A DNA stretch of 64,000 bases from Ianthella basta (lineage: Eukaryota > Porifera > Demospongiae > Verongiida > Ianthellidae). Of the stretch, positions 1 to 51,465 are shown piece after piece. Each line of letters begins with the position of its first letter. Position 1 is the stretch's first letter. Location: the NCBI GenBank assembly GCA_964019415.1, contig OZ025884.1, forward strand, positions 3,162,193 to 3,226,192, given 5' to 3'. Under the pieces are notes generated by a model. That model saw only the letters and a program-made list of their open reading frames with translations, was not told the origin of the DNA and searched no databases. A program made the position numbers and the translations under genes.

Positions 1-2246
1 TGCCAGTATCCGGAGCACTTTCAACCTTGTTGCCATTTTCTTGTTGACCACATGCTACTCTTCTGGCCATAGCAACTTAGTTGGCAATCCTGACCAATGG
101 TAATAGTGAGTTCCAGAATAGTCTGATACTGTACCTCCCTCAATGTCTTCTGGACAGGACAGTGGCTGCTCACAGCCAGAAATCTCAGCATTACACAACT
201 CGCTCCAGACCAAACACAATGTATATAGGAATGCAGTACCCTATAATTTGTAGCCATTTTGCTGAATCTGAGCGTTAACCTAAACTTTAGAGTGGAATTA
301 GAGGTTAGAGCAGTTCAAAATAGGATTGCATTGTGTTTGTGAAACTTTTGATGTCCCTTTTTCCAGAGGTTATAGTACATACTCTGTATGTATATACCAC
401 ACCTAACAAGCCTAACAAGCTAGAATGAGTGAATAAAACTGTCACACCTCATTCTTCTTTTATGGTAAATGTCATTGTAATGATTATGTATGTGATTAGC
501 CTTGATGCCTATTCTATTACTACAATTTTTTGCAGAAAAGTATATCATTCCTTGCGATTGCTGCATAAACTTGACAGTAATTCCCTTTGTGAACGAGTAG
601 CCCTTGGAAAGCTGGAAGCTCTCGTGGAAGACAAAGAAAAATTCTGTGAGCCATCTGTGCATTGTTAAGTCAGTATTGCTGCAGCTAGCCGTGGGTGGAC
701 TGGTCAATCTACATAATATCAGACAGCATGGTAGTGCTACTGTACTACTGTACACAGACATATACGTACAATCATATGTACATATGTGTATTAGACAGTA
801 TGATAGTGATGTCTATGTAAGGATGGCTGTGGTTGTTTGTATACTTTAATACAAACGAATAGTAGCACTATTATCATTGAAGGCTAAAACCAGCAAAAAG
901 GGCTACCCAAGAGGTAGTATCTGTTGCATGCAACACAAGACTAACCTTACTTTCCAGTGAAACTGCGTGCTTTGGCTGAAAACGGCTTTGACGTTTTCAG
1001 TGTTTCAGCTTTTTCTTCTTCTGCTTCTCTGACAGCAGTAGTGCACAAACCATAACAAGTAGAATAAAATATTTACCACAGCTTAACGCATCTGCCAACT
1101 GGCTGTATTCCTTTGTAGGTTAGAAACCTCCATGGGCAAGTTTCACAAATGAGAGTTTCCAGGCCTTCGAGAGATGTTGCTGTACAATTTAAGAAAACAT
1201 AATTGAACGCTTTGGCTACAATTGTTCACCTAGTCCTCCTTCAGATTTTATTGAATAGCCTAGAAACACTATTGTATGTCTAATTGGAGGTGCATATGTG
1301 GCTAGCCTTGGCCAAAGTTAGCTTGTGCTACATTTGCAGTTGTGCATTTCCCTGCCATTTTAATTACTGCACAGTTGGCTTCCAGTTGCTGTTTCTGTAT
1401 TCTATTCACAAGTTAGCTCAGACCCTAGGTGCTAGCCCACACCTTGAGATCCAGTGTTACAGAAACAGGGTCTGACACCTGCACCAATGTCCTATTGTTA
1501 CGAGTGGTTAGTATGTAGCTACAGCTTGGTTTACACACTTTAAAAGGTGCAGAAGCTAGAAATAATAATTTGTACAAAACTAGTAAGGATGTAGGGGTGG
1601 CATAAAAATGACAAAATGGAAGTATCTGCTGCTACACAGTGCATTACCAGTGGTCCCTACATACAAGGATGGTGCTACATTCCTGTATGATCCTTCAAGT
1701 GAGATTGGCCCTATAGCTCTTTTGTAATTTAACACTCTTATCAACCTTAGATTCAGACTTCTGTTTGTTACCTTGGGCATGCACCACCTGAGGGCTCCAT
1801 GCTTTTCCTGCCCTCTAGTACTTACTCATATAAGGCTAAAGCATTTACAGTGCATACAAATTCTACATTGTTACTTATTCTGACTCAGATGGGTAGCTGA
1901 CTAGCTGGGCATCAGTTTAGAAGTTTTAACTTCTACTTTTAATTACTAATGAGGAATCAGTGAAAGCTTTTAGTTCTATTCACCAGTGACTATGATCACA
2001 TCAAGCTGGCATAGCTTTGATAGCCTCAGATGAAGCATGAATGTGTACATGTTGGAAGTTGGCTGAGGTAAATTTATTAAATAATTATTAGTTATATTAG
2101 GCACACAGGGAGTTACTACTGGCAGGGTTGGTTTGAACTTGAATTTGGATGGCCTGCCAGCACATGTTTAGCATTTTTAGAACAGTTGCTCAGGATATTT
2201 ACGGATGCAATATGTTTATTCTTGTATCACTTTCCTTTCTTCACAG
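1..2246. other. 5' flank or intronic DNA of the helicase gene
   Basis: I can support no complete gene here. The helicase reading frame enters at 2247 behind a splice acceptor, so earlier exons must lie in this stretch or before the window, but I could not identify them with confidence. About 1560-1690 resembles a repeat that recurs at 28.5 and 47.2 kb (the shared stretch is around a GTAAGGATGTAGGG motif and a GGTCCCTACAT motif). Confidence 0.5.
536..668 (+). CDS. Possible single exon, unknown product
   Basis: A T-rich tract ending in a TTTGCAG acceptor is followed by about 43 open codons containing KLEALVEDKEKF, which looks protein-like (charged and amphipathic), up to a TAA at 666-668. I see no convincing donor and no recognisable family. 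It could be a terminal exon of a neighbouring gene, an upstream helicase exon whose donor I missed, or chance. It is listed only as a candidate. Confidence 0.2.
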
Positions 2247-3977
2247 CTGTCAAATTTGATGAGATCAGAGACATGCTTTTTTCAGATCCCTATACGCATT
2301 GGCATTGGGATGATTCATGTGGAAGACTAAATCGTGGACAGATTAAAGCACTTATGCATGCAATGGTGAACGAATTCCAGCTCATTCAAGGCCCTCCAGG
2401 TACTGCATTATTGCTTTCCTGAATTTTAACTACAACAGCTAGACACTACAATTGCATATCCTATTTCAAAGCACATATGTAATCTTAAATCTCAAAAAGA
2501 TATATCAATTGCAGCTCCACAGAGGCAGGAAAGAAGTAAGTATGCAAATAGACAGAAATCAAGCTCAGGACCAAGCTGTATTGTTAGTCTCATGAGCCAG
2601 ACTGTTGCACTATACACTGCGAAACAGTCGGGTCACATGAGCCAGCTTTTTGTCATACAGATCTGTATGGAATACTGTAACATATGTGCAGTACGTGTGA
2701 GTGATTAGCTTATGCCTTCATGATCATAGCCTGCAATTTGTGTCTCAAGCTTAGTGTTGGATGGGAAAACGTATGGAATAGGATTGACAGACCATCTGCT
2801 GTGTCACTAAGATCGATTTTGTCAGAATCGGAAATAGGTTTCATGCTCCTATGTGTTAATTGGTTGCATAACTTGTATGCTTCGCTCAGTTGATAACAGC
2901 TCGCAGTCGTCGCTGTCTTCGGACCAAATGTCTACAGTTGGCTTCAACGGATCATCAATCTCCCAGACACATATAGTGCACTCGATTAGGTGGGATACCT
3001 GCTACATGTGAAATGGAACTGTCTTAATTGGCTGTTCTGTAGGCTGCATAATTGTTTGGCCAAGATCCTGGCCACCTTGTGCCACAAAAAGCTAGCTCAT
3101 GTGACCAGACTGTTTGCATGGGTATTGTGCAACAATTTGGCTCCCAAGACTATCTGTATCATGACATTTCATCAATAACACTACTCAACCAGCAGTGACC
3201 ATTTGTATTGTGCATCAGTCACTGGATGACTGCCATGCTGCAGCTGAAACCCACGCTGTCAAAGTTAGTGATGGTAAATAGTAATGTGTCTCTTTCTCTT
3301 CTACATGCGTGTATGTTCACTAGTGTAGAAGAGACAATGGCACCTTAGTGCATGGAGTGCTAATCACCAATATGAATAATACCGGGCACAAGGCATTTCT
3401 GCTAAATACTAGAAGCAGATCATGTAAGGTAAATCTGAGGCAAATTGAGATTCTGGGAGACACCTGGCATTACTGTAAATGAATTCCTTTAAGTTTGCAA
3501 GCATGTTGTTTGTATGCTAGCACATGCCACAAGGTGCATCCTTCTTGATACAACACTTTTCAGCCCTGCATACATGCAATCATAATTATTTATGAGTTAA
3601 AGTGGTTGAAACATAATAGAACAGCTGTAGTGTCTTTATTCATAATTTGCAAGTTATTGCATTATGGCTAAAAGTGGTCTGCGTGATTTAGAGCATTAAT
3701 ATGTTATATGGTTTAATTGGTATCTTGCTGGTTCCATTTTTGTGCACATGTTTAGCATGTATTAGCATGTATTTTGTTCAATAATGGCTGGCCTCCCAGC
3801 TCAAATACTTCTACTGCACTGCACCGGACAGGTGGCAGGATCAATGTACAGAACTGGATGAGTGCAGTGATTTGCTTGCCAATTGTCTGAATCATAGAAA
3901 ACTTAAGCCTAGATTACACAGTTGTAATGGATCTTTGCATTTGAGCATGCACCTAGTACACTTAAATTTGTGTGTGG

Positions 3978-4070
<93 letters not shown>

Positions 4071-4098
4071 GTGTGTGTGTTAACACGTGTGTGTGTGT

Positions 4099-4175
<77 letters not shown>

Positions 4176-7100
4176 GTGTGTGTGTTAACACGTGTGTGTA
4201 TGTGTGTGTGTGTGTTTGTGTGTGTGAATATGTGTGTTGTGTGTGCATGTATGTGCCTTTATGAGTGCCTGGGCTGTGTCCATATAATTTTGGGTTCATA
4301 TATTGTGTGCATGAGAGTATTTGTGACCAATTCATAGTATTGTGATAATGATTGCAGAATAGTACTATGTGAAGGGAGATGTCAGCCTCATGTGTTTTAA
4401 AGTCAAATTACATTTGATATGCTTTGCTTTTAAGTCACTACATTTGCCATTGTGGAAATCATCTTTCTCTATTGACTGTAGTTTTTTTATGATAGTGTAG
4501 TAGCCTCCACTTGGTAACTATGTATATTTATCAACCCTGCAGATAACTATGTGCCGCATGCTGTTTCTTTCAACCTCGTGCATATTTTGCATCACCATAG
4601 CTGTAGGATGCAGTCTCATGTCTAACCCCTATTGTGCAATTGCTATACAATAGGGACTGGTCAGACTTGGCAAGGTGTTCAAATGCAGGAGTTTCAATAG
4701 ACCAAACAAATATTGCACTTTGCAATGTTTGTGGTTGCTAAACCACTTCGATGTTGGACATGGTAACTACCATTGTTCGGGAAGAAGCATTTCTGTCTTT
4801 TGAAGGATAATGTGTATGGCAATTACAAGGTTATGGTGTGCTGGAATGCATTCATAGAGAGCGGTGAGATGAAAGAGGTATTTTCACCTGACGATATACG
4901 TAGCTATGCACTGCCTAGCGAGTCACATTGTGTTTGAATGCAGCTCCATGCCATCAGTTGTGAGTTCATTCTTTGAGGGAGCCTTCCAATACTCCATGGC
5001 TTTTTAGCTCACATACATCTCTCACTCATGTTTGGTACTTTCAGTGGTCATCTATCAGCACTTGGCAACTTTGTGTATGGGTGAACTCAGCAACAGTATT
5101 TTTGAATTGTTCCTCCCTGCAAAACAGAACAGTTCATAAGGTGTTCGCTGCATATGGCAGTATACTACTATATAATGATACACTGGCTAGTTCACATCCC
5201 TGACTTGTGATTGATGATGTCACTCTTTCTATGCATTCCATGCCAACCTTTGAACATGTTATAAAAGTTTGACCAGATCCATTACTCTTGACCCATTGCA
5301 CCTTACCTTCTAGTGGAATATGAAGAAGACTTTAATATGTATGTAATTGTAAGCAGTTTGTCATTGGATTCATGTGTCTGTGGCAAGTCATTCAGTGGGC
5401 CTATGAATATTTTCTGTTCTGGTCCTTATTATTATATATTGCAATTATCTGGCAAGCAGTATAAATTTATGCTTAAAGCAGTGACTAAAGGGAGCAAGGA
5501 CAAGCAAAGGAAAGCAGTGTGTGATGCGGATGAGCCAAAATTTCCCCAGCAGTGAAAACGCTCCTGCACAGTATTATTGAGATATTATGAGTACCACTTG
5601 AATTTCACTCACAGCAAAACATTTTAGCTCCATATTTTATATGAAACACTTGATTTAATACAGATTTGTACTGCCTTATATACACTTTAAACTTGTGCAG
5701 GGTTAAACTTTTGCAGTCTGCAAGTTTTCACGATTTTTGTTCTTGCTTACATGATTGCACAGTCTCAGGCAAGACAGCTAAATCTTTGTCTAGGGTTTCT
5801 CAGGATGAAACTTCCACTGATGGTTGCTCATCCACAAAAAACGTGAAAGTTTTAACTCTGCAAAAGTTAACATGGATATGGTATGTATAGGGGGAATATT
5901 GCCTAGAGAGAGCTTCTTGCTAAACAGGAGTTTCAGAAGAAATGAAGCCTGCTGTACATTGCTACCTATGGATCTGATATCCACAATTCCAACCTAAAGT
6001 TACTTTAGTTGCCATCTCCAAAAGAGTATCATTAACATTTTTGATATAAGAGATTCCCTTCAAACTAGACCCTACGGAGAGGCTTTGTTCACAGAGATTA
6101 CTACTGTACTGAAGTTGATCCAGGTTATATATATTATGTCTGCCATCAAACCCAGAGAATTACTTAAGGCTTACTTAAGCTCAACAAACAACTCAACAGT
6201 AATTAAATAGTATCAAAATTTGACTTGTTCACAAAGTCTTAACAATTTATTTAGTTCTTGCAGCTAATGAATTTTTAAGAACAAATGTAAGCAGGCTGCG
6301 CTCGTTCGAAAATGTTAGTTTAGCTTATGTTATTATGCAAAGTTTTGTACTGTTACACATGTTTTTGCTTTCTCGTGCATGCACAAGCAATTGAGAGAGT
6401 ACCACAGCATGACAGACTTTAAAATGATAAGAATACAAGCATAAAACATGCAGCATAAGAAACAGTACAACAATAGGTTACCTATGATTGCAAGATAGCT
6501 TTTTGATACCAGAACCCTTGAGACCTGTGCAGCAGTGAGTCTCTTCAATTAGATTTGAATTTTTTCTAATTTGTTGGTTTACTACTGACCCATGCAGGCA
6601 CAGGAAAGAGCATTACTGGGGCACACATTGCCTATGCATTTGCCATGTGGAATCGAATGAAAGCTGCTCAGGAGTCAGCAACAACTGATGAATCTGAATG
6701 CACAGTCAAAAGTGACACTGAAGCAGATGAGTCAGAGAGCACCACAGAGGATGATGATGCTTCAAGTCTTCCCCCCCTGCAGTGTGTCATATACTGTGGC
6801 CCCTCCAATGCATCAGTAGATGTTGTTCTACGTAAGTATATCCTACAGTGTCACTGCCAGTTAATATTTGGGTGATTATATTTAATGCATGTTCATCCTT
6901 TGTGTATAGAGCATCTTCATGGCATGGCTGTAAGCTGTGATAACCCCAATGGACTTCGTATTCTGCGTATGTATGGAAAGATGATTGAGACAAGGTATCA
7001 TGTTGGTCCTTATTATGACCCGAATCTTTATGCACAGATAGATAAGTACCCTATCAGAGAGGATCTTCAGCAGTATGCTTTACATGACTTAGTTCGCACT

Positions 7101-11384: not shown

Positions 11385-13360
11385 CTTTGACAGTTAGTAC
11401 TGCGCCTGTGCACAGGATTTCACTCACTGACTCCACTATATCCCCCTTTAGGTATATACCAAGCCCAGTGTCACCTCTCTAAGCAATTGCATTGGTTCTT
11501 ACTGAACCCAGCAGCCAGGATTCTGCTACCTCTGACACTGCACTCCACATGCACTTCCACCTTGACTACTTGAGCGCAACTGACTGCCGCCTCCAGCCGT
11601 CCCAGCCCCCTTCCTCTTCACTCAACCTTACTACAGGTACAAAACACAACACAGATTCTGAGGTAACGCCTTACAAAACAAAACTGCACTATTGGTATGT
11701 CTTTAGGGGGTATAGCTATATGTTGCTGATAGGCACAATGGCTGTCTGAGAGGCACATGAGATGGGTGATCAGTGAATGTGTGCACGAGAATATCATAAA
11801 GGGATCTGCATAGCAGATGGCAAACAAGCTAGCTCCCATGCATGCTGATGTAGACACAACCAAATAGTGTCATATATATGAAATAGACATTTGGTATAAT
11901 TAATTATAGTCTGCAATGTATTAGTTATATGGATTTCTAAGCATGAGACCATGAGGGCAATCCATATACATCAAATTTAAAAGTGCCGTGAGATAAGTGA
12001 TGTATATGGCTGAGGTTGCAGCTTTGCACAGATTTCGAGGTTTGCCCGTAACATATACCATGTATATAGGCTTTTATTAAAAAGGTGGACTTCTTTCAGG
12101 ATGGCAGCTCTCAAGATGTTGCCTTATTATGTTGCATTTTCAAGTGAGGTTAAACTCCTGGAGCAACACTCCAAGGTGCTAGTGAAGTGATTAAGGCTTT
12201 GTACAACGTTCTTGACCATCTAGGTTCTTTGTGCTCACTGGATGACTTTCTGAAACAGTGCTTTCCCCACTGCTGCAGTGAGTTTGAGTGCTTCTTGTGT
12301 ATGAATTAGTGCATGTGCTTGCTGTTTCTCATTGTGCACTGTGTGGACAAGTGCATGGTTCATCTGGCTCGGCTACAGACTGCTTTACATCCTTTAAATC
12401 CTGGCTGGGCTTGTTTACAAGATATCATCACGTGGTTGCCATGGCACTGTGATATATATACTGTGGTCAAGAATGGACTGTGGCCTGGGTGGGGCTTGCC
12501 TTCACTGGGGGGCCACTTTAAACATGGAATTGATTCAAAACACCGCATAAGTTAGGTATAGCCACACACTAAGATTGGGAGTACCTAAGCATACTCTATT
12601 TGACACATACATAGAGATGCAGCTCAGTAATTATTGCACTATGTACACCTCCATGCATGCTGTGGATGCCAAATTAGTAAGGCACAAATGAGTTGAACAA
12701 GGCAAATTCGCCATGAGACAAGATGAGACGAGATGGCAGATTCGATAGACTAGTCATGTTGGTTGGCACAAATAGTCTATCAAATCTCAATCCCTGGACA
12801 ATATATAATTATAGAAATTAAAAAATTTTGTGGCGCAAAAATGGTGCATGTAGGTACACTGCATATGCACACCTACCATAGTAGGAACTTAACTTCTAGA
12901 ATTAAAGGTAAAACTCTGTGTGAGATTCCTTGGAACGCTGGAACAGGATCACCATATTGATGTGTTCTCAACTGTGGCATGTTCTGGATAAGCAAGCACT
13001 TAAGAACAGACCTAAGGTTTGAGCTCACAACTGAACATATGCATACATGATGGAAACTGGCAGGGTATAAGAAATGGATGAATGATGTGTGTAGTTCAGT
13101 CAGGTACTTGCACTTGGTGAGGCAGTGGTAGAGTATCATATGCATGGTGTCAAAATGACTAAGGTACAAATCAAAGGTGAGGCACCTGTTTAACTGTGTG
13201 ACAGTGCTCTGGGTGAGAGATTAGGTTGCTTTGTGACTTAAACAAAGCATGAAACACATACAAAAGATTAAAGTTGTCATGGTTACATCTTGATGGCAGG
13301 TCAATGCCTGTGGCAAAGATGGCCTCGCTGACCTCCACTGACTTGAACCGTGTTAGAAAC
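11385..13360 (-). pseudogene. NACHT-LRR gene remnant, copy 1
   Basis: Three pieces match the intact copy at 55.9-61.1 kb in order. Positions 11385-11640 are the last LRR exon (KVEVHVE, AAGFSKN recognisable, frame disturbed). Positions 12870-13018 are the penultimate LRR exon. Positions 13019-13360 are the 3' part of the NACHT exon (YLSHFDTM, HLTELHTS-like, YPASFHHV). The intron between the last two pieces and two further LRR exons are missing, so LRR and NACHT exons are fused directly. The Walker A and Walker B region is absent. Homology stops abruptly near 13360. This is a dead remnant of an innate-sensor-type gene. Confidence 0.8.
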
Positions 13361-21781: not shown

Positions 21782-22571
21782 CTGTAGGTACAAAAGACAA
21801 TACAGGGGTGTTGAGGTGCATGACAGTGCCTTACAAATTGCAACAACAATGCAATGACCACTGTGCTATTGGTATGGGAGGGGAGGTAGTCTTGTGACCC
21901 AGCCCAACATAGGTGCAAGGTCTACGTAGCATGCTTGCTCAATAGTTTGATACTACTCCTAGTGTGCTTACCAACATCTAGTTTAAGAGCCCATATCTCT
22001 AACCTGCGCTAGCCATGGATATAGGGTAGAGTGGGTATTCAACGTGCTTGTGTACCTAGGCCCACGAAAGCTGCACGGTTTGACAGTTGCTCAATAGTAT
22101 CAAATCACCCATGGAACAATTGTGCAGATGCTGGCAAGCGGCCCCATCTTGGGAATGTTGAAATTCTCACATGCACTTGCTCAGAAAACGTGAGAATTTG
22201 ATGTTTGATGTATGTGATGTGTGTTAGATCAGATGGAGGTGAACACTGCTCTGTGTGAAGCAGCACTGAAGGCTAGTTTTGTAGGTTGACTCTTTGCAGC
22301 ACCAGATACACTGCGTTGGCATCATACCATGCATGATATACTGTACATATATACCAAAAGGCTTCAAGTAATTAAAATACTACATGTGCATGGCAGACCA
22401 TGCACCATTTAGTGGTCTAGCTCATGAGAAGGTAGGTAGTTTGCTGATGAATACACCCTGCCTGGCTGGTGAGTGAATGTGCGAGAGTACAATAAAGGGA
22501 CCTTGAGGCTGGCATACCACAGCCGATGTTGACAAGTTGGACAGGGCGTAGCATACTGTAAAAGGTATGAT
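21782..22571. other. Spacer without recognised gene
   Basis: Largely unique sequence with no open frame showing a domain. It stands where introns and LRR exons of NACHT-LRR copy 2 would be expected. Confidence 0.4.
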
Positions 22572-22608
22572 ACAGAACATTTCAGCCACAGAGGCCTTCT
22601 TCAGCTGC
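22572..22608 (-). ncRNA. Hammerhead ribozyme-like motif (copy 22.6)
   Basis: Read on the - strand: core CTGAAGA (22598-22604, position 7 is known to be variable), one extra A, helix II GGCC/GGCU closed by TCTGT, then GAAAT and the triplet GTT. Helix I is four pairs (GCAG region with CTGT). The layout equals that of the two better copies at 27.1 and 51.4 kb. No inverted partner arm is evident, and the adjacent satellite starts about 30 bp away. Self-cleavage is inferred, not shown. Confidence 0.5.
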
Positions 22609-22639
22609 CAGCCTAATTGTTGAATAAGACCTCTGAATG

Positions 22640-26221: not shown

Positions 26222-26932
26222 CATGCACATGCACACATGTAGTCCCACTACTCCCTGGCAACAGCTCAACAGGCCTACAAGTCGCTTATAAAAATCCATG
26301 AATAGAATGATAAGTTGTACTGCACTGTTTGCGTAATATACCTGTGTGTACTGCACTGTAAGTAAATGTATAATATAAGTAGAGATTGCCATATTATAGT
26401 ATTGTACAGTATAGTGTTCTCAGTCTCATCATCATGTCAGTTGTGAGTGGTGTTATCTTAGTCAACCTGCTCCTTCCCTCCCCCTCCCCCTCCCCCTTCC
26501 CCTCACCACAGGGTGGTACACCCCTTCTAAGGACGAGGGCTAACTCTGTGAATTGAATTCCAGTCATGCTAACTATTATAATGTGCAATTCTGATTCATT
26601 GACAACTACATCCATGTTTATTGTACACCAGTCAAGTATGCAATGTGAAGTGTGTGTCACCGGCCCCATTGTGTGTATGGCAAAAAGCTATAGCATAATT
26701 TTCTATCCTTCCTTTCCATGACACTGTGTATATACAGGCTTTGCAATATCCACAGTATATGCATGACAGCATTATTATGGACAGCTTATGTGTGACGCTC
26801 ACACTGATAATAATTGGCGTGAGTCATTTGCATCTGTGAGCACACCAGTTATATCAGTGTGATGTTCACTCCAACCAGTTTTGGTGTGAAGGCCACACAC
26901 ATAATTATAGGAAGGAGTGATCCTCACCATAG

Positions 26933-27216
26933 AGGACAAGGGGAATTATTGAGCAACACGTAGCGGAGAAAAATAGATAGAAATCAATGTAATACGTTTC
27001 GACCACGAAGGTCTTCAATATGAGTGATTGGCTTTATATAGCAACCAGGTTGCTATATAAAGCCAATCACTCATATTTCTCCAGTTTTGTAACTGATGAA
27101 GACTTTCGTGGTCGAAACGTATTACATTGATTTCCATCTATTTTTCTCCGCTACGTGTTGCTCAACAACTCCCCTTGTCCTCTCAATGCCGTAGCTATGA
27201 GCCTCTACCAAATTAG
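26933..27216. mobile_element. Inverted-dimer hammerhead element, copy B
   Basis: Two arms in head-to-head inversion meet at AACCAGGTTGC (about 27045). The insertion is flanked by an 11-bp direct repeat, CCTCAC-C/T-ATAG (26922-26932 and 27217-27227), and copy A of the same spacer (about 15490) has the single uninterrupted site. The right arm holds a complete hammerhead core. The left arm has a deletion through the CUGAUGA box. Ribozyme-bearing repeats with target duplications of this length are known for Penelope-like elements and retrozymes. That assignment is inference, since no reverse transcriptase is present. Confidence 0.72.
27088..27126 (+). ncRNA. Hammerhead ribozyme-like motif (copy 27.1)
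   Basis: Core CTGATGA at 27093-27099, one extra A, helix II GAC/GTC with the loop TTTCGTG, GAAAC at 27114-27118, and cleavage triplet GTA ending at 27121. Helix I pairs TGTAA (27088-27092) with TTACA (27122-27126), five Watson-Crick pairs. Helix III is only the two-pair AC/GT, as described for minimal type I hammerheads that act as dimers. Self-cleavage after 27121 is a prediction. Confidence 0.65.
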
Positions 27217-32714: not shown

Positions 32715-34127
32715 ATGCTTACAAATAGAAGGAGGCCCCTTCTCTTGATTTTAATTATTGGGCTCAGTTGTCTTCTGCTCCTGAAGGGCTTTTCATATGT
32801 GCCTCGCAGTGATACCGTACCGTCCGCCTACGTACCAAAGGCCGATGGAGGAAACGTGCCTTCCCTTCCATCAGAGACCAAACGGGCGACTTCCCTTCCA
32901 TCAGAGACCAACCAGGAGCCACTCACTGATCAGCAACTCTGTCTGAACGTCCTACGGCGAACACAGAGTTTCAAGCAAAGCCTCCTCAAAGAGTGTGAAC
33001 ACTTGGTAGGTAATTTGCCCATCATTAAGACCTACTTGGAGAGGACTTTAACATACTTGTCTTGGCATAACAGCGCAACAACGCGGGCAGCGCCCGATAA
33101 GCGGACATTGACTTGGAAGTGTCTGCGGCCTCTCATATGGTGCGGTGGATATGGCGACCAGGTTCGTGGAATGGCCTACACCTTTGTTCTCGCTCTTCTA
33201 ACAGACAGAGTGCTGTACATTCAGTGGCCTAACTTGTACATTGCAAAGAGTGAAAATGACGGGAGTACCCACGAAGACAGTAATATGTTTGTTCCCAATG
33301 CCATTAATTGGACTGTACCCTCCTTTCTTTCAAACGTTTCTGCTATGCAGTTCATCGACCTTGATGCCTATCATGAGCCAAGTGGTGTATGTGAAGCTCT
33401 ATACAGCCAGACTCAGCATATTACATACAACACCATGCACTGGCACCCTACCTGCTTCAGCGAAACTTTGATGGCTAACCATACTGCTTCTTTGGCTTTG
33501 AAAGAGTTACTCAAAGCACCGACAGATGCGCTAGAGTTTTCTGTTACAGTTACAATACGCCTGCTACTCAAGTACAGCAATGCTGTGTACGAGAGAAAGA
33601 AAGAGCTCAAGAAAGAATTAGGTATTGGTCCTGATTCCCATTTTGTAGCTATACATATCAGATCTGGGATATTTGCATCTGGTGTGGATGAATCAAAGTC
33701 AGGTAGTTATATGACATCTGAAATTCAATGGGAGGAGCAGATTGAATGTGCACTGAATAAGTCCAAGGCATTGGGTATAACTGGACCCGTTGCTGTAATA
33801 TCAGATTCAACGCAATGCAAGCAGTGGGCAAGGAAGAGGTATGGGAACAAAGTGATAGCAAGTGACATTGCTACAATGCACATTGCTAAAGATCCAAATT
33901 CTTGGACTGACACAGCAACAATGAAGAAGAAGATAAAGCGCTATAATTCTGTCCTGGCAAATACAGCTGAGTTGGCATTCATGTCTGATGCTGCAGCGAT
34001 TGGCATGAGAGGCAGTGGGTTTCCTAGAATTAGCGCCTGGCTGGGGGGACTACCCACTGATGCTATGTTCTGTTGTCCTGTAGCCAACTGTGGTACTACT
34101 GTTGCACTTGTCCTTCCGGGTTCCTAA
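32715..34127 (+). CDS. Fucosyltransferase-like type II membrane protein, copy B (470 aa)
   Basis: An uninterrupted frame beginning MLTNRRR with a signal anchor (about residues 9-24), then a stem with KGFSYVPRSDT and two SLPSET units. The catalytic-type motifs are CGGYGDQVRGMAY and VAIHIRSG. It differs from copy C at about a dozen residues, including Trp for Ser directly before CGGYG, and is more distant from copy A, which lacks the FSYVPRSDT segment. All conserved cysteines and sequons seen in copy A that lie in the shared domain are kept. It is probably a Golgi glycosyltransferase using GDP-fucose. Its upstream region has been replaced by the Harbinger insertion except for the last 147 bp, which may change expression. 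Confidence 0.72.
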   Translation: MLTNRRRPLLLILIIGLSCLLLLKGFSYVPRSDTVPSAYVPKADGGNVPSLPSETKRATSLPSETNQEPLTDQQLCLNVLRRTQSFKQSLLKECEHLVGNLPIIKTYLERTLTYLSWHNSATTRAAPDKRTLTWKCLRPLIWCGGYGDQVRGMAYTFVLALLTDRVLYIQWPNLYIAKSENDGSTHEDSNMFVPNAINWTVPSFLSNVSAMQFIDLDAYHEPSGVCEALYSQTQHITYNTMHWHPTCFSETLMANHTASLALKELLKAPTDALEFSVTVTIRLLLKYSNAVYERKKELKKELGIGPDSHFVAIHIRSGIFASGVDESKSGSYMTSEIQWEEQIECALNKSKALGITGPVAVISDSTQCKQWARKRYGNKVIASDIATMHIAKDPNSWTDTATMKKKIKRYNSVLANTAELAFMSDAAAIGMRGSGFPRISAWLGGLPTDAMFCCPVANCGTTVALVLPGS

Positions 34128-34846
34128 CCATGCACTCTTGGCTAATTGTCATGTATGGCTTGCAAATCTATACACTGCATGTAGCTATGCATGCATGTAT
34201 AGCAACACCTATTATAGCTGTAGTAATGCAGATCAACCACTTGTGTGACATAATGCTATAGATATCAGACACGCACATAGACAGCATACACTACTGTGCT
34301 GTCTATGTAGGGATGGCCGTGCAAGTAGTTGCTTGTATATGCTGTAATGCATGCAAACGAAAAGTATAGCTATATTGTCGTATAGGGCTTAAAACCGGCA
34401 CAGAAAACTATCCAAGAGTAAGTATCTGTTGCATACAACGCATGACTATATAGCTAACCTTGCTTTCCAGCAGCATAAATGTGTGCCCTGGTAGAAAACA
34501 ATGTCAACATTTTTTGTGTCTCGTCATTTTTTTCTCAGAAATCAGTATAGCGTACGAACCATAGCGAGTACGATAAAATGTTTACGCTGCTTTCCACTGG
34601 CTAGCTATATATTCATTTGTAGGTTAGCTATTATGAAACCTCCGAGAGCAAGTTGCACAAATGAGGATTTCATGGCGCGTGGCCTTGGGAAGGCCTGCAT
34701 GGCCTTCTAACGATATTCCGTGATTCAATTCGTGACCATGGAGCAGGATTCTGGTATATTTGCCAATTGCAAGTTAGGCATCACTGGCCGTACCCCTCTC
34801 TAGGGACAGGTACAGTACAGTTATTGCTACAGACCCTTACAGCCCG
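34128..34846. other. 3' flank of copy B, conserved in unit C
   Basis: This is nearly identical to 51460-52160. It contains ATGGCGCGTGGCCTTGGGAA and similar strings but no recognisable coding region. Confidence 0.45.
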
Positions 34847-45697: not shown

Positions 45698-45850
45698 CTG
45701 GTTGCTATATAAAGCCAATCACTCATATTTCTCCAGTTTTGTAACTAATGAAGACCTTCGTGGTCGAAACAAATTACATTGATTTCCATCTATTTTTTCT
45801 CCACTACGTGTTGCTCAATAATTCCCCTTGTCCTCTCAATGCCGTAGCTA
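45698..45850 (+). mobile_element. Truncated hammerhead element at the duplication junction
   Basis: From about 45700 the sequence equals the right arm of the element at 27.05-27.2 kb. The core is mutated: CTAATGA replaces CTGATGA (the invariant G5) and the cleavage triplet is AAA instead of GTA, so it should be inactive. The sequence to its left is the truncated NACHT exon of copy 3. Confidence 0.7.
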
Positions 45851-49408: not shown

Positions 49409-50821
49409 ATGCTTACAAATAGAAGGAGTCCCCTTCTCTTGATTTTAATTATTGGGCTCAGTTGTCTTCTGCTCCTGAAGGGCTTTTCATATGTGCCTCG
49501 CAGTGATACCGTACCGTCCGCCTACGTACCAAAGGCCGATGGAGGAAACGTGTCTTCCCTTCCATCAGAGACCAATCGGGCGACTTCCCTTCCATCAGAG
49601 ACCAACCAGGAGTCACCCACTGATCAGCAACTCTGTCTGAACGTCCTACGGCGAACACAGAGTTTCAAGCAAAGCCTCCTCAAAGAGTGTGAACACTTGG
49701 TAGGTAATTTGCCCATCATTAAGACCTACTTGGAGAGGACTTTAGCATACTTGTCTTGGCATAACAGGGCAACAACGCGGGCAGCGCCCGATAAGCGGAC
49801 ATTGACTTGGAAGTGTCTGCGGCCTCTCATATCGTGCGGTGGATATGGCGACCAGGTTCGTGGAATGGCCTACACCTTTGTTCTCGCTCTCCTAACAGAC
49901 AGAGTGCTGTACATTCAGTGGCCTAACTTGTACATTACAAAGAGTGAAAATGACGGGAGTACCCACGAAGACAGTAATATGTTTGTTCCCAATGCCATTA
50001 ATTGGACTGTACCCTCCTTTCTTTCAAACGTTTCTGCTATGCAGTTCATCGACCTTGATGCCTATCATGAGCCAAGTGGTGTATGTGAAGCTCTATACAG
50101 CCAGACTCAGCATATTACATACAACACCATGCACTGGCACCCTACCTGCTTCAGCGAAACTTTGATGGCTAACCATACTGCTTCTTTGGCTTTGAAAGAG
50201 TTACTCAAAGCACCGACAGATGCGCTAGAGTTTACTGTTACAGTTACAATACGCCTGCTACTCGAGTACAGCAATGCTGTGTACGAGAGAAAGAAAGAGC
50301 TCAAGAAAGAATTAGGTATTGGTCCTGATTCCCATTTTGTAGCTATACATATCAGATCTGGGATATTTGCATCTGGTGTGGATGAATCAAAATCAGGTAG
50401 TTATATGACATCTGAAATTCAATGGGAGGAGCAGATTGAATGTGCACAGAATAAGTCCAAGGCATTGGGTATAACTGGACCCGTTGCTGTAATATCAGAT
50501 TCAACGCAATGCAAGCAGTGGGCAAGGAAGAGGTATGGGAACAAAGTGATAGCAAGTGACATTGCTACAATGCACATTGCTAAAGATCCAAATTCTTGGA
50601 CTGACACAGCGACGATGAAGAAGAAGATAAAGCGCTATAATTCTGTCCTGGCAAATACAGCTGAGTTGGCATTCATGTCTGATGCTGCAGCGATTGGCAT
50701 GAGAGGCAGTGGGTTTCCTAGAATTAGCGCCTGGCTGGGGGGACTACCCACTGATGCTATGTTCTGTTGTCCTGTAGCCAACTGTGGTACTACTGTTGCA
50801 CTTGTCCTTCCGGGTTCCTAA
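49409..50821 (+). CDS. Fucosyltransferase-like type II membrane protein, copy C (470 aa)
   Basis: Uninterrupted frame, same length as copy B. It has a signal anchor near residues 9-24, a stem with two SLPSET units, the motif SCGGYGDQVRGMAY (Ser as in copy A) and VAIHIRSG. The domain ends in CCPVANCGTT and PGS. The upstream flank is free of the Harbinger element. The stop codon at 50819-50821 lies inside the 12-bp target duplication of a hammerhead element, so that element starts about ten bases after the coding region and would become part of the 3' UTR. The glycosyltransferase assignment is as for copy A, with acceptor unknown. Confidence 0.72.
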   Translation: MLTNRRSPLLLILIIGLSCLLLLKGFSYVPRSDTVPSAYVPKADGGNVSSLPSETNRATSLPSETNQESPTDQQLCLNVLRRTQSFKQSLLKECEHLVGNLPIIKTYLERTLAYLSWHNRATTRAAPDKRTLTWKCLRPLISCGGYGDQVRGMAYTFVLALLTDRVLYIQWPNLYITKSENDGSTHEDSNMFVPNAINWTVPSFLSNVSAMQFIDLDAYHEPSGVCEALYSQTQHITYNTMHWHPTCFSETLMANHTASLALKELLKAPTDALEFTVTVTIRLLLEYSNAVYERKKELKKELGIGPDSHFVAIHIRSGIFASGVDESKSGSYMTSEIQWEEQIECAQNKSKALGITGPVAVISDSTQCKQWARKRYGNKVIASDIATMHIAKDPNSWTDTATMKKKIKRYNSVLANTAELAFMSDAAAIGMRGSGFPRISAWLGGLPTDAMFCCPVANCGTTVALVLPGS

Positions 50822-50910
50822 CCATGCACTTTTTTTTGTTTGAAAAGTCCTGAGTGGCTAGGTAAGTCTGACATCATCCAAGTTCGTTCGCACTAGCCAA
50901 AATTTCACAA

Positions 50911-50959
50911 GTTATCCAGACGTTTCGGCAGCTTTCAGCCACCTTCATCAGTGAATGAC
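50911..50959 (-). ncRNA. Hammerhead ribozyme-like motif, left arm (copy 50.9)
   Basis: The reverse complement carries the same core, helices and GTC triplet as the motif in the right arm at 51368-51416. CTGATGA is at 50945-50951 and GAAAC at 50922-50926. Confidence 0.68.
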
Positions 50960-51367
50960 AAAATACAGCACTCCTATAGTTTATATATAAATGTTAGTGA
51001 CAGGTGATGAAATGTGGTGACAGTTGATGATGTGACCATGAATAACGTTAAAGTAACAATTTAACAGTCAATGAATTTTTGTCACCCTGTCAAACTGTCA
51101 CCCATATGCCACCACACGCTGCCTATTGGAGAGCTGGCATATACAACGGAACCCGGATGCACTGAATAGGGAGAAGGGAACCTTGCCTGAGGTGTACACT
51201 GCCCTCCTAGAGTAGATTACTATTGGATCTCTACTGTTACTGCCTAACAAAATTCATTGACTGTTAAATTGTTACTTAACGTTATTCATGGTCACATCAT
51301 CAACTGTCATCACATTTCATCACCTGTCACTAACATTTATATATAAACTATAGGAGTGCTGTATTTT

Positions 51368-51416
51368 GTCATTCACTGATGAAGGTGGCTGAAAGCTGCC
51401 GAAACGTCTGGATAAC
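51368..51416 (+). ncRNA. Hammerhead ribozyme-like motif, right arm (copy 51.4)
   Basis: Core CTGATGA at 51376-51382, one extra A, helix II GGTGGC/GCTGCC with the loop TGAAA, GAAAC at 51401-51405, cleavage triplet GTC ending at 51408. Helix I pairs GTCATTCA (51368-51375) with TGGATAAC (51409-51416): five pairs next to the core, one mismatch, then two more. Helix III is the two-pair AC/GT. All invariant core bases of a type I hammerhead are present. The extra purine between A9 and helix II recurs in every copy in this window. Confidence 0.72.
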
Positions 51417-51465
51417 TTGTGAAATTTTGGCTAGTGCGAACGAACTTGGATGATAACCATGCACT

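Follow-up and report, generated by a model that had tools for sequence, protein, structure and literature searches.

How did a palindromic sequence with a hammerhead motif in each arm come to lie at the very end of an open reading frame (ORF) of the sponge Ianthella basta, and to which type of mobile element does it belong? The sequence spans positions 50831-51453 of the stretch of DNA analysed here (64,000 nucleotides of contig OZ025884.1, GenBank assembly GCA_964019415.1; hereafter, the window). According to the present analysis, it is a dead copy of a coding Penelope-like element (PLE), inserted head to head and truncated at its 5' side, and a probability of about 90% is given to this reading. 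The element of the window is, in itself, ordinary. Its relatives matter more, as the route by which PLEs are inserted is still open: the later steps of PLE insertion are yet to be validated, as stated in the available part of the Anolis study (PMC11167929).

The insertion and its target site

The insertion consists of two inverted arms of about 206 bp, each of them with a hammerhead core, enclosed by a 12-bp target duplication. Two stretches of the arms pair with each other: (i) 50873-51051 with 51276-51454 (179 nt, 99% complementary); and (ii) 51051-51079 with 51249-51277 (29 nt, 100% complementary). The direct repeat TAACCATGCACT is found at 50819-50830 on the left and at 51454-51465 on the right, where its first T could equally be the last base of the element, and it sits inside a 15-nt repeat (93%). 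In a sister (duplicated) unit of the window, pattern search and comparison located the empty site at 34125-34136 (+ strand), within uninterrupted sequence. That unit differs from the window copy at 3 of the 431 bases compared, duplicated site included. Since the site is uninterrupted there, next to the same gene end, 50831-51453 is a real insertion. The inverted dimer, the target duplication and the empty site had already been proposed in a first-pass annotation made from the sequence alone, and the present results bear out all three. The same annotation had the element start about ten bases past the stop codon of a gene, which has to be corrected: the upstream 470-aa ORF (49409-50821) stops at a TAA that forms the first three bases of the duplication itself. 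A 173-aa piece of this ORF had one short homologue and no Pfam family at E 0.001.

The two arms are unequal. In front of the left arm stand 42 nt (50831-50872) that are for the most part PLE tail; the right arm lacks them and abuts the target directly. Read from the left, the target is followed by seven T's and one G (50831-50838), the T's being probably untemplated, and then by the 34-nt PLE tail (50839-50872, - strand), which is taken as the stretch between two inferred start sites of reverse transcription. The left half proper (50873-51079, - strand) aligns with the 3' end of the PLE unit, from unit position 2635 down to 2426. A 14-nt filler (51080-51093) marks the head-to-head junction and holds TGTCACCC, which recurs just past it. 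The right half (51094-51453, + strand) aligns with the same 3' end from unit position 2271 and is tailless. At the end of the tail, the relative that shows the whole unit (locus L022) reads on as ...TTTTCAAACGTGTC, which explains the G and not the T run. Runs of seven T's (or A's) between tail and target, apparently untemplated, are present both in the window (50831-50837) and at locus L017 (3159-3165).

Relationship to coding Penelope-like elements

Both outer ends of the insertion represent one 3' region of a coding PLE. A search of the 209-Mb genome with the window element, as had been suggested beforehand, yielded at least 100 matches. Fifty loci of the element's own family were assembled: the window copy, 30 loci fetched from this search, 17 found via the 3' end and 2 from the list of hammerhead-pattern occurrences. 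Many of them extend further 5' into the ORF, some far into the reverse transcriptase (RT) gene. L022 is a direct tandem in which the whole 2635-nt unit can be read: ATGATG just 5' of the tail, open stretches, the ORF end, the hammerhead and the ORF start again. Lying directly after ATGATG, the tail would code for residues near the start of the ORF product. The open stretches of L022 comprise 210 aa and 592 aa, with one stop codon between them.

The 592-aa stretch (L022 1646-3424) matched the RT family RVT_1 with an E of 1.9e-4, below Pfam's own cut-off, and the GIY-YIG family weakly (E 0.051, likewise below the Pfam cut-off). Of 8000 scored candidates, 3362 are homologous to it at E <= 0.001, and 120 of these were listed. 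Homologues of the ORF carry PF00078, and in two of them, P0094 (47% identical) and P0114 (45%), GIY-YIG is found above the cut-off near the C-terminus; for a third, P0003, it is not among the domains listed. A PDB sequence search gave nothing of use.

The features by which endonuclease-containing PLEs are recognised can thus be compared with the family: (i) an RT ORF is present, and the window copy retains its C-terminal codons only (51094-51215, + strand; read against the L022 ORF, they end in ...NREKGTLPEVYTALLE, followed by TAG); (ii) a C-terminal GIY-YIG endonuclease is found, weak in the family itself and clear in the two homologues mentioned; (iii) a minimal hammerhead in the pseudo-LTR is seen from structure and covariation, the Rfam models being without a match; (iv) the tail at one end, of 30-40 bp in PLEs, measures 34 nt; and (v) units are arranged in tandem (L022) or head to head, with target duplication. 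As copies with an ORF for RT and GIY-YIG have this very sequence as their 3' end, and the right half of the window copy retains the ORF end and stop, the element is assigned to the PLEs. The first-pass annotation was therefore right to see hammerheads of the Penelope kind and the retrotransposition of an RNA.

Long inverted repeats and a target duplication would also be expected from the remnant of a DNA transposon with terminal inverted repeats (MITE-like). Matching terminal repeats at fixed ends are, however, not what the insertion has, one end being tailed and the other tailless. The inner ends vary freely among copies, some copies are tandem or single-ended, and the Pfam scan of the L022 coding stretch gave matches to RT and GIY-YIG and to no transposase family. 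The MITE-like reading is largely refuted by the coding copies and keeps a negligible probability.

Hammerhead motifs

The right arm carries its hammerhead at 51362-51424 (+ strand), with CTGATGA at 51376-51382, an extra A at 51383, GTC at 51406-51408 and a predicted cut between 51408 and 51409. The left arm mirrors it at 50903-50965 (- strand), with the same core elements at 50945-50951 and 50919-50921, and a predicted cut between 50919 and 50918. Both placements come from the sequence and from a covariance model. Helices I and II can be formed, the former with five consecutive pairs, and helix III is absent, GAAAC being joined directly to GTC. The core motifs and the five pairs of helix I described in the earlier annotation are consequently real, while the very short helix III assumed there does not exist.

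The pattern AACCATGCACT occurs four times in the window versus 0.14 expected, the fourth occurrence being at 12350 (- strand). Genome-wide, the core pattern has 425 occurrences versus 3 for the reversed pattern, with places listed for contigs C1-C3 only. An extra base between CTGATGA and helix II is found in all 20 distinct motif types read with their flanks (19 A, 1 T); it thus marks no lineage, contrary to what had been suggested for the extra purine. If this base is skipped, helix II has at least three consecutive pairs in 15 of the 20 types; if not, in none. In a paper on the viroid hammerhead core, an extra nucleotide reportedly lies at the same place.

When the window's own type is left out, helices I and II covary among the remaining 19 types: there are 46 double-change cells versus 19.1 in shuffles, and the covariation score is 0.652 versus 0.256, none of 500 shuffles scoring as high. 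Every slide control scores lower. The number of pairs with a double-sided change (7) is not above that of the shuffles (6.8). A version without the extra base, with helix II shifted by one position, was rejected: pairing drops from 81.9% to 57.9%, and covariation is lower too. The covariance model derives from the 19 hammerhead types other than the window's own and gives both arms 50.5 bits (E 3.3e-13, a rough value), a score partly built in because the core pattern served to select the types and some of them resemble one another closely. A check with Rfam models, as recommended in the earlier annotation, turned out negative: the whole window had no match at the gathering threshold, and 701 bases searched up to E=10 had six matches, none of them a hammerhead, all with weak snoRNA/sRNA scores below the cut-offs. 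Single-strand folding of the motif is uninformative (z -0.87).

The window holds other motifs of this kind. A second inverted hammerhead dimer, from another PLE-like family, is located at 26931-27183; its 87-nt arms are 95% complementary and include model matches at 27079-27137 (E 2.5e-11) and 26977-27038 (E 0.0025). Further matches were found at 22560-22618 (- strand, E 5.2e-6) and 45731-45784 (+ strand, E 3.1e-4).

As for function, a + strand transcript of the insertion would carry a single hammerhead in sense orientation, together with an antisense copy, and not both motifs as had been anticipated for host transcripts. Folded alone, it is predicted to form a single long hairpin (-412.7 kcal/mol, z -44.6 against 20 shuffles) that buries the hammerhead. 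The hammerheads of the palindromic window copy are probably inactive. They are passengers from the PLE leader or pseudo-LTR, where RNA processing is their supposed role.

Insertion ends, template and known systems

Of the 50 own-family loci, 27 have two outward 3' ends and a target duplication, and in every one of these 27 one end is tailed and the other tailless. The same holds for three other PLE families, in which 16 of 16 two-ended insertions carry exactly one tail. These other-family pairs were picked for being head to head (close pairs among the core-pattern places listed). Direct repeats were recognised by script in 13 of the 16 and by eye in L102/L103, L104/L105 (in an AAG repeat) and L108/L109; the pair L110/L111, which is separated by 8.7 kb and has no repeat, was left out, and L087 and L115 are middle copies. 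If each end were tailed independently at probability one half, 43 one-tailed insertions out of 43 would have a chance of about 1 in 10^13, a figure which is only a guide, as the copies of a family are not independent trials of the mechanism.

Some details of the scoring have to be given. L047 is a duplicate of L046 within the own-family count; L134 and L040 were scored as tailless although they include 6 and 3 nt of tail, respectively; in L036, the tailed half consists entirely of tail (28 nt); and L041 holds a third, inner copy. For target duplications, 60 random end pairs gave a median score of -0.6 and a 95% value of 5.0, with one pair at 16.8. Accepted duplications score at least 8, except for that of L017 (5.0), whose exact repeat of 9 bp is set apart by seven A's; those of L132 and L040 have one mismatch each. 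At the two nicks, compared across 25 of the 27 sites, bases are weakly preferred and no motif separates the tailed from the tailless nick; when folded by itself, the tail region does not outperform shuffles (z -0.47).

The remaining own-family loci are of several kinds. L055 is two-ended with one tail and has no clear duplication. L015 has two ends, no tail and no target duplication, and its host flanks are mirror images; this tailless head-to-head PLE (688-4257) could be an assembly artefact, a palindromic rearrangement or the result of a later event. A duplication around one 3' end is found in L051/L124 (tailed), in L136 (tailless, 8-bp repeat) and in L137 (tailless; 12-bp repeat recognised by eye, one mismatch), so the pairing of ends is not obligatory: both strands are usually, not always, extended. 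L136 (2896-2980) and L137 (2953-3037) are single tailless PLE 3' ends of about 85 nt that contain a hammerhead and show a short target repeat. Both were absent from the matches listed for the element and 3'-end searches and came from the list restricted to contigs C1-C3, so very short single-ended copies are probably under-counted. In 17 of the 50 loci there is one 3' end or an unresolved structure (L010, L011, L012, L020 with a run of N, L021, L022, L026, L027, L028, L029, L030, L031, L035, L042, L048, L050 and L053). At L010 and L135, a host segment with one PLE end forms a tandem repeat with a period of about 1661 bp.

A single cDNA strand that folded back from its end and served as its own template, through self-priming or a strand switch, could have given the palindrome in one step. 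Such a foldback is discussed for palindromic junctions in PMC3846280 and had been suggested in the first-pass annotation. The two halves do end within 12 nt of each other on the template in 7 of 23 insertions, and the second dimer of the window (26931-27183), with a gap of 1 nt between its inner arms, looks so made. Nevertheless, foldback would copy the tail too, and the tail is at one end only in all the two-ended duplicated insertions counted above; furthermore, the halves end more than 12 nt apart in 16 of the 23, and those of the window at 2426 versus 2271. The asymmetry between tailed and tailless ends does not suit the foldback of one cDNA, which is here considered improbable, and is better explained by two separate starts.

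The agreement between inner ends also bears on the template of these two starts. Seven close pairs in 23 exceed what partner shuffling gives (mean 1.04, maximum 6, 20,000 shuffles; 23 of 26 rows, L015, L036 and L040 being left out). Five of the seven are near the hammerhead, where ends cluster, and 2 of the 11 insertions with both ends outside the cluster are matched. Besides, the halves of the same insertion share 15 non-majority variants versus a mean of 1.9 and a maximum of 9 in 1000 partner shuffles (22 loci, 21 of them comparable, L012 and L055 included). Seven of the 15 occur nowhere else among the copies compared, and 44 variants are not common to both halves. Mean divergence is only moderately lower within (1.7%) than between insertions (2.6%), and L043 and L044, whose halves differ by 5.6% and 8.8%, fit poorly. 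Taken from sequence comparison, this suggests that both starts are usually on one RNA molecule, or on RNAs from one source copy. Alternatively, gene conversion between the arms or a single source locus might account for the shared variants, and part of the one-template signal could be mimicked by gene conversion or by later tandem amplification.

A particular case is L040 (774-2147; G000:C10:3270073-3271446), flanked by a 13-bp duplication with one mismatch. Both of its inverted halves are concatemers of one 184-nt hammerhead unit, with 1.9 copies in the minus half and 5.6 in the plus half. In this unit, unit position 77 is joined to about 2526, and the junction is not at the ribozyme cut. A genome search with 86 bases across the junction gave six full or near-full matches and one partial match, all at L040 among the matches listed. 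As the same private junction is unlikely to arise from two independent RNAs, one circular or re-used RNA, or the RNA of a lost source array, would have served for both halves. The circular or concatemeric template once proposed for the window copy finds no support there and some in this sister insertion.

The tandem units of L040, together with very short single copies such as L136 and L137, raise the question of whether the window copy, itself short and with hammerheads, is a separate non-autonomous, retrozyme-like retroelement moving via a small circular RNA. A non-autonomous element had been the original proposal, and the retrozyme-like reading is very improbable: the right half retains the end of the PLE ORF, other insertions of the family reach far into the RT gene, and the 184-nt junction is confined to L040 among the matches listed and is not at the ribozyme cut. 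In addition, the hammerhead has no helix III, while the animal retrozymes described in the available part of PMC7229834 are short tandem repeats with canonical type I hammerheads. What had been taken for an independent element is, then, a truncated copy of a coding PLE family.

For the insertion of such a PLE, the following course can be put forward tentatively: (i) the PLE protein would cut the two target strands 12 bp apart; (ii) each free 3' end would prime its own reverse transcription of the PLE RNA; (iii) one start, at the distal site, would yield the tail, and the other, at the proximal site, none; and (iv) the two first strands would be joined head to head, with the 14-nt filler in the window copy. 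Two RT start sites bounding the tail, as well as the cutting and extension of both strands, are reported for the Anolis PLE in vitro (PMC11167929). In that study, the two strands were not seen to differ in start site, so it gives no reason to expect the tailed/tailless asymmetry. A rule of one tailed end and one without a tail, with both halves apparently from one template, favours two unequal starts on one RNA and argues against foldback. In its full form, the proposal is that the tail site is used on one strand and the tailless site, about 34 nt away, on the other, on one RNA, and that a small circle or an RNA re-used end to end (L040) gives a tandem hammerhead array, a possible origin of retrozyme-like repeats from a coding PLE; as a whole, this is conceivable and rather less than an even bet. 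The findings that deserve further attention are the one-tail rule and L040. It has already been published that PLEs can show head-to-head halves, target duplications and a tail on one side, and it is the regularity of these features that is less expected; that the one-tail rule is unpublished is not established by the literature search, which covered an open library and pointed to two PLE papers as close.

Among known systems, metazoan retrozymes (PMC7229834) resemble L040 in being small tandem repeats with hammerheads, and differ in that their repeats are non-coding and their hammerheads canonical; inverted halves are not mentioned in the available text, the word "inverted" occurring 0 times in the main text. 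With the PLE hammerheads, usually minimal versions without helix III (PMC6155905, in the part available), the sponge motifs share the type I core, and they differ from them by the one extra base between A9 and helix II; the same source cites a paper on an extra nucleotide in the viroid hammerhead core. A further likeness is that with the endonuclease-containing PLEs of Anolis (PAc; PMC11167929) and of Adineta vaga (Penelope families; PMC3846280). According to the available parts of both papers, a single ORF of these elements encodes RT and, at the C-terminus, GIY-YIG, and the elements have pseudo-LTRs in tandem or inverted, copies arranged head to head, target duplications (8, 9 and 10 bp in Adineta) and an optional tail of 30-40 bp at one inverted end (31 bp in Adineta, at one of the inverted pseudo-LTRs). 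In PAc, the hammerhead is also close to the ORF start; in the sponge family, the predicted cut is 43 nt upstream of the ATGATG of the L022 ORF. Finally, while the tail is optional in those papers, the one-tail pattern of the sponge is exceptionless among two-ended insertions with a target duplication.
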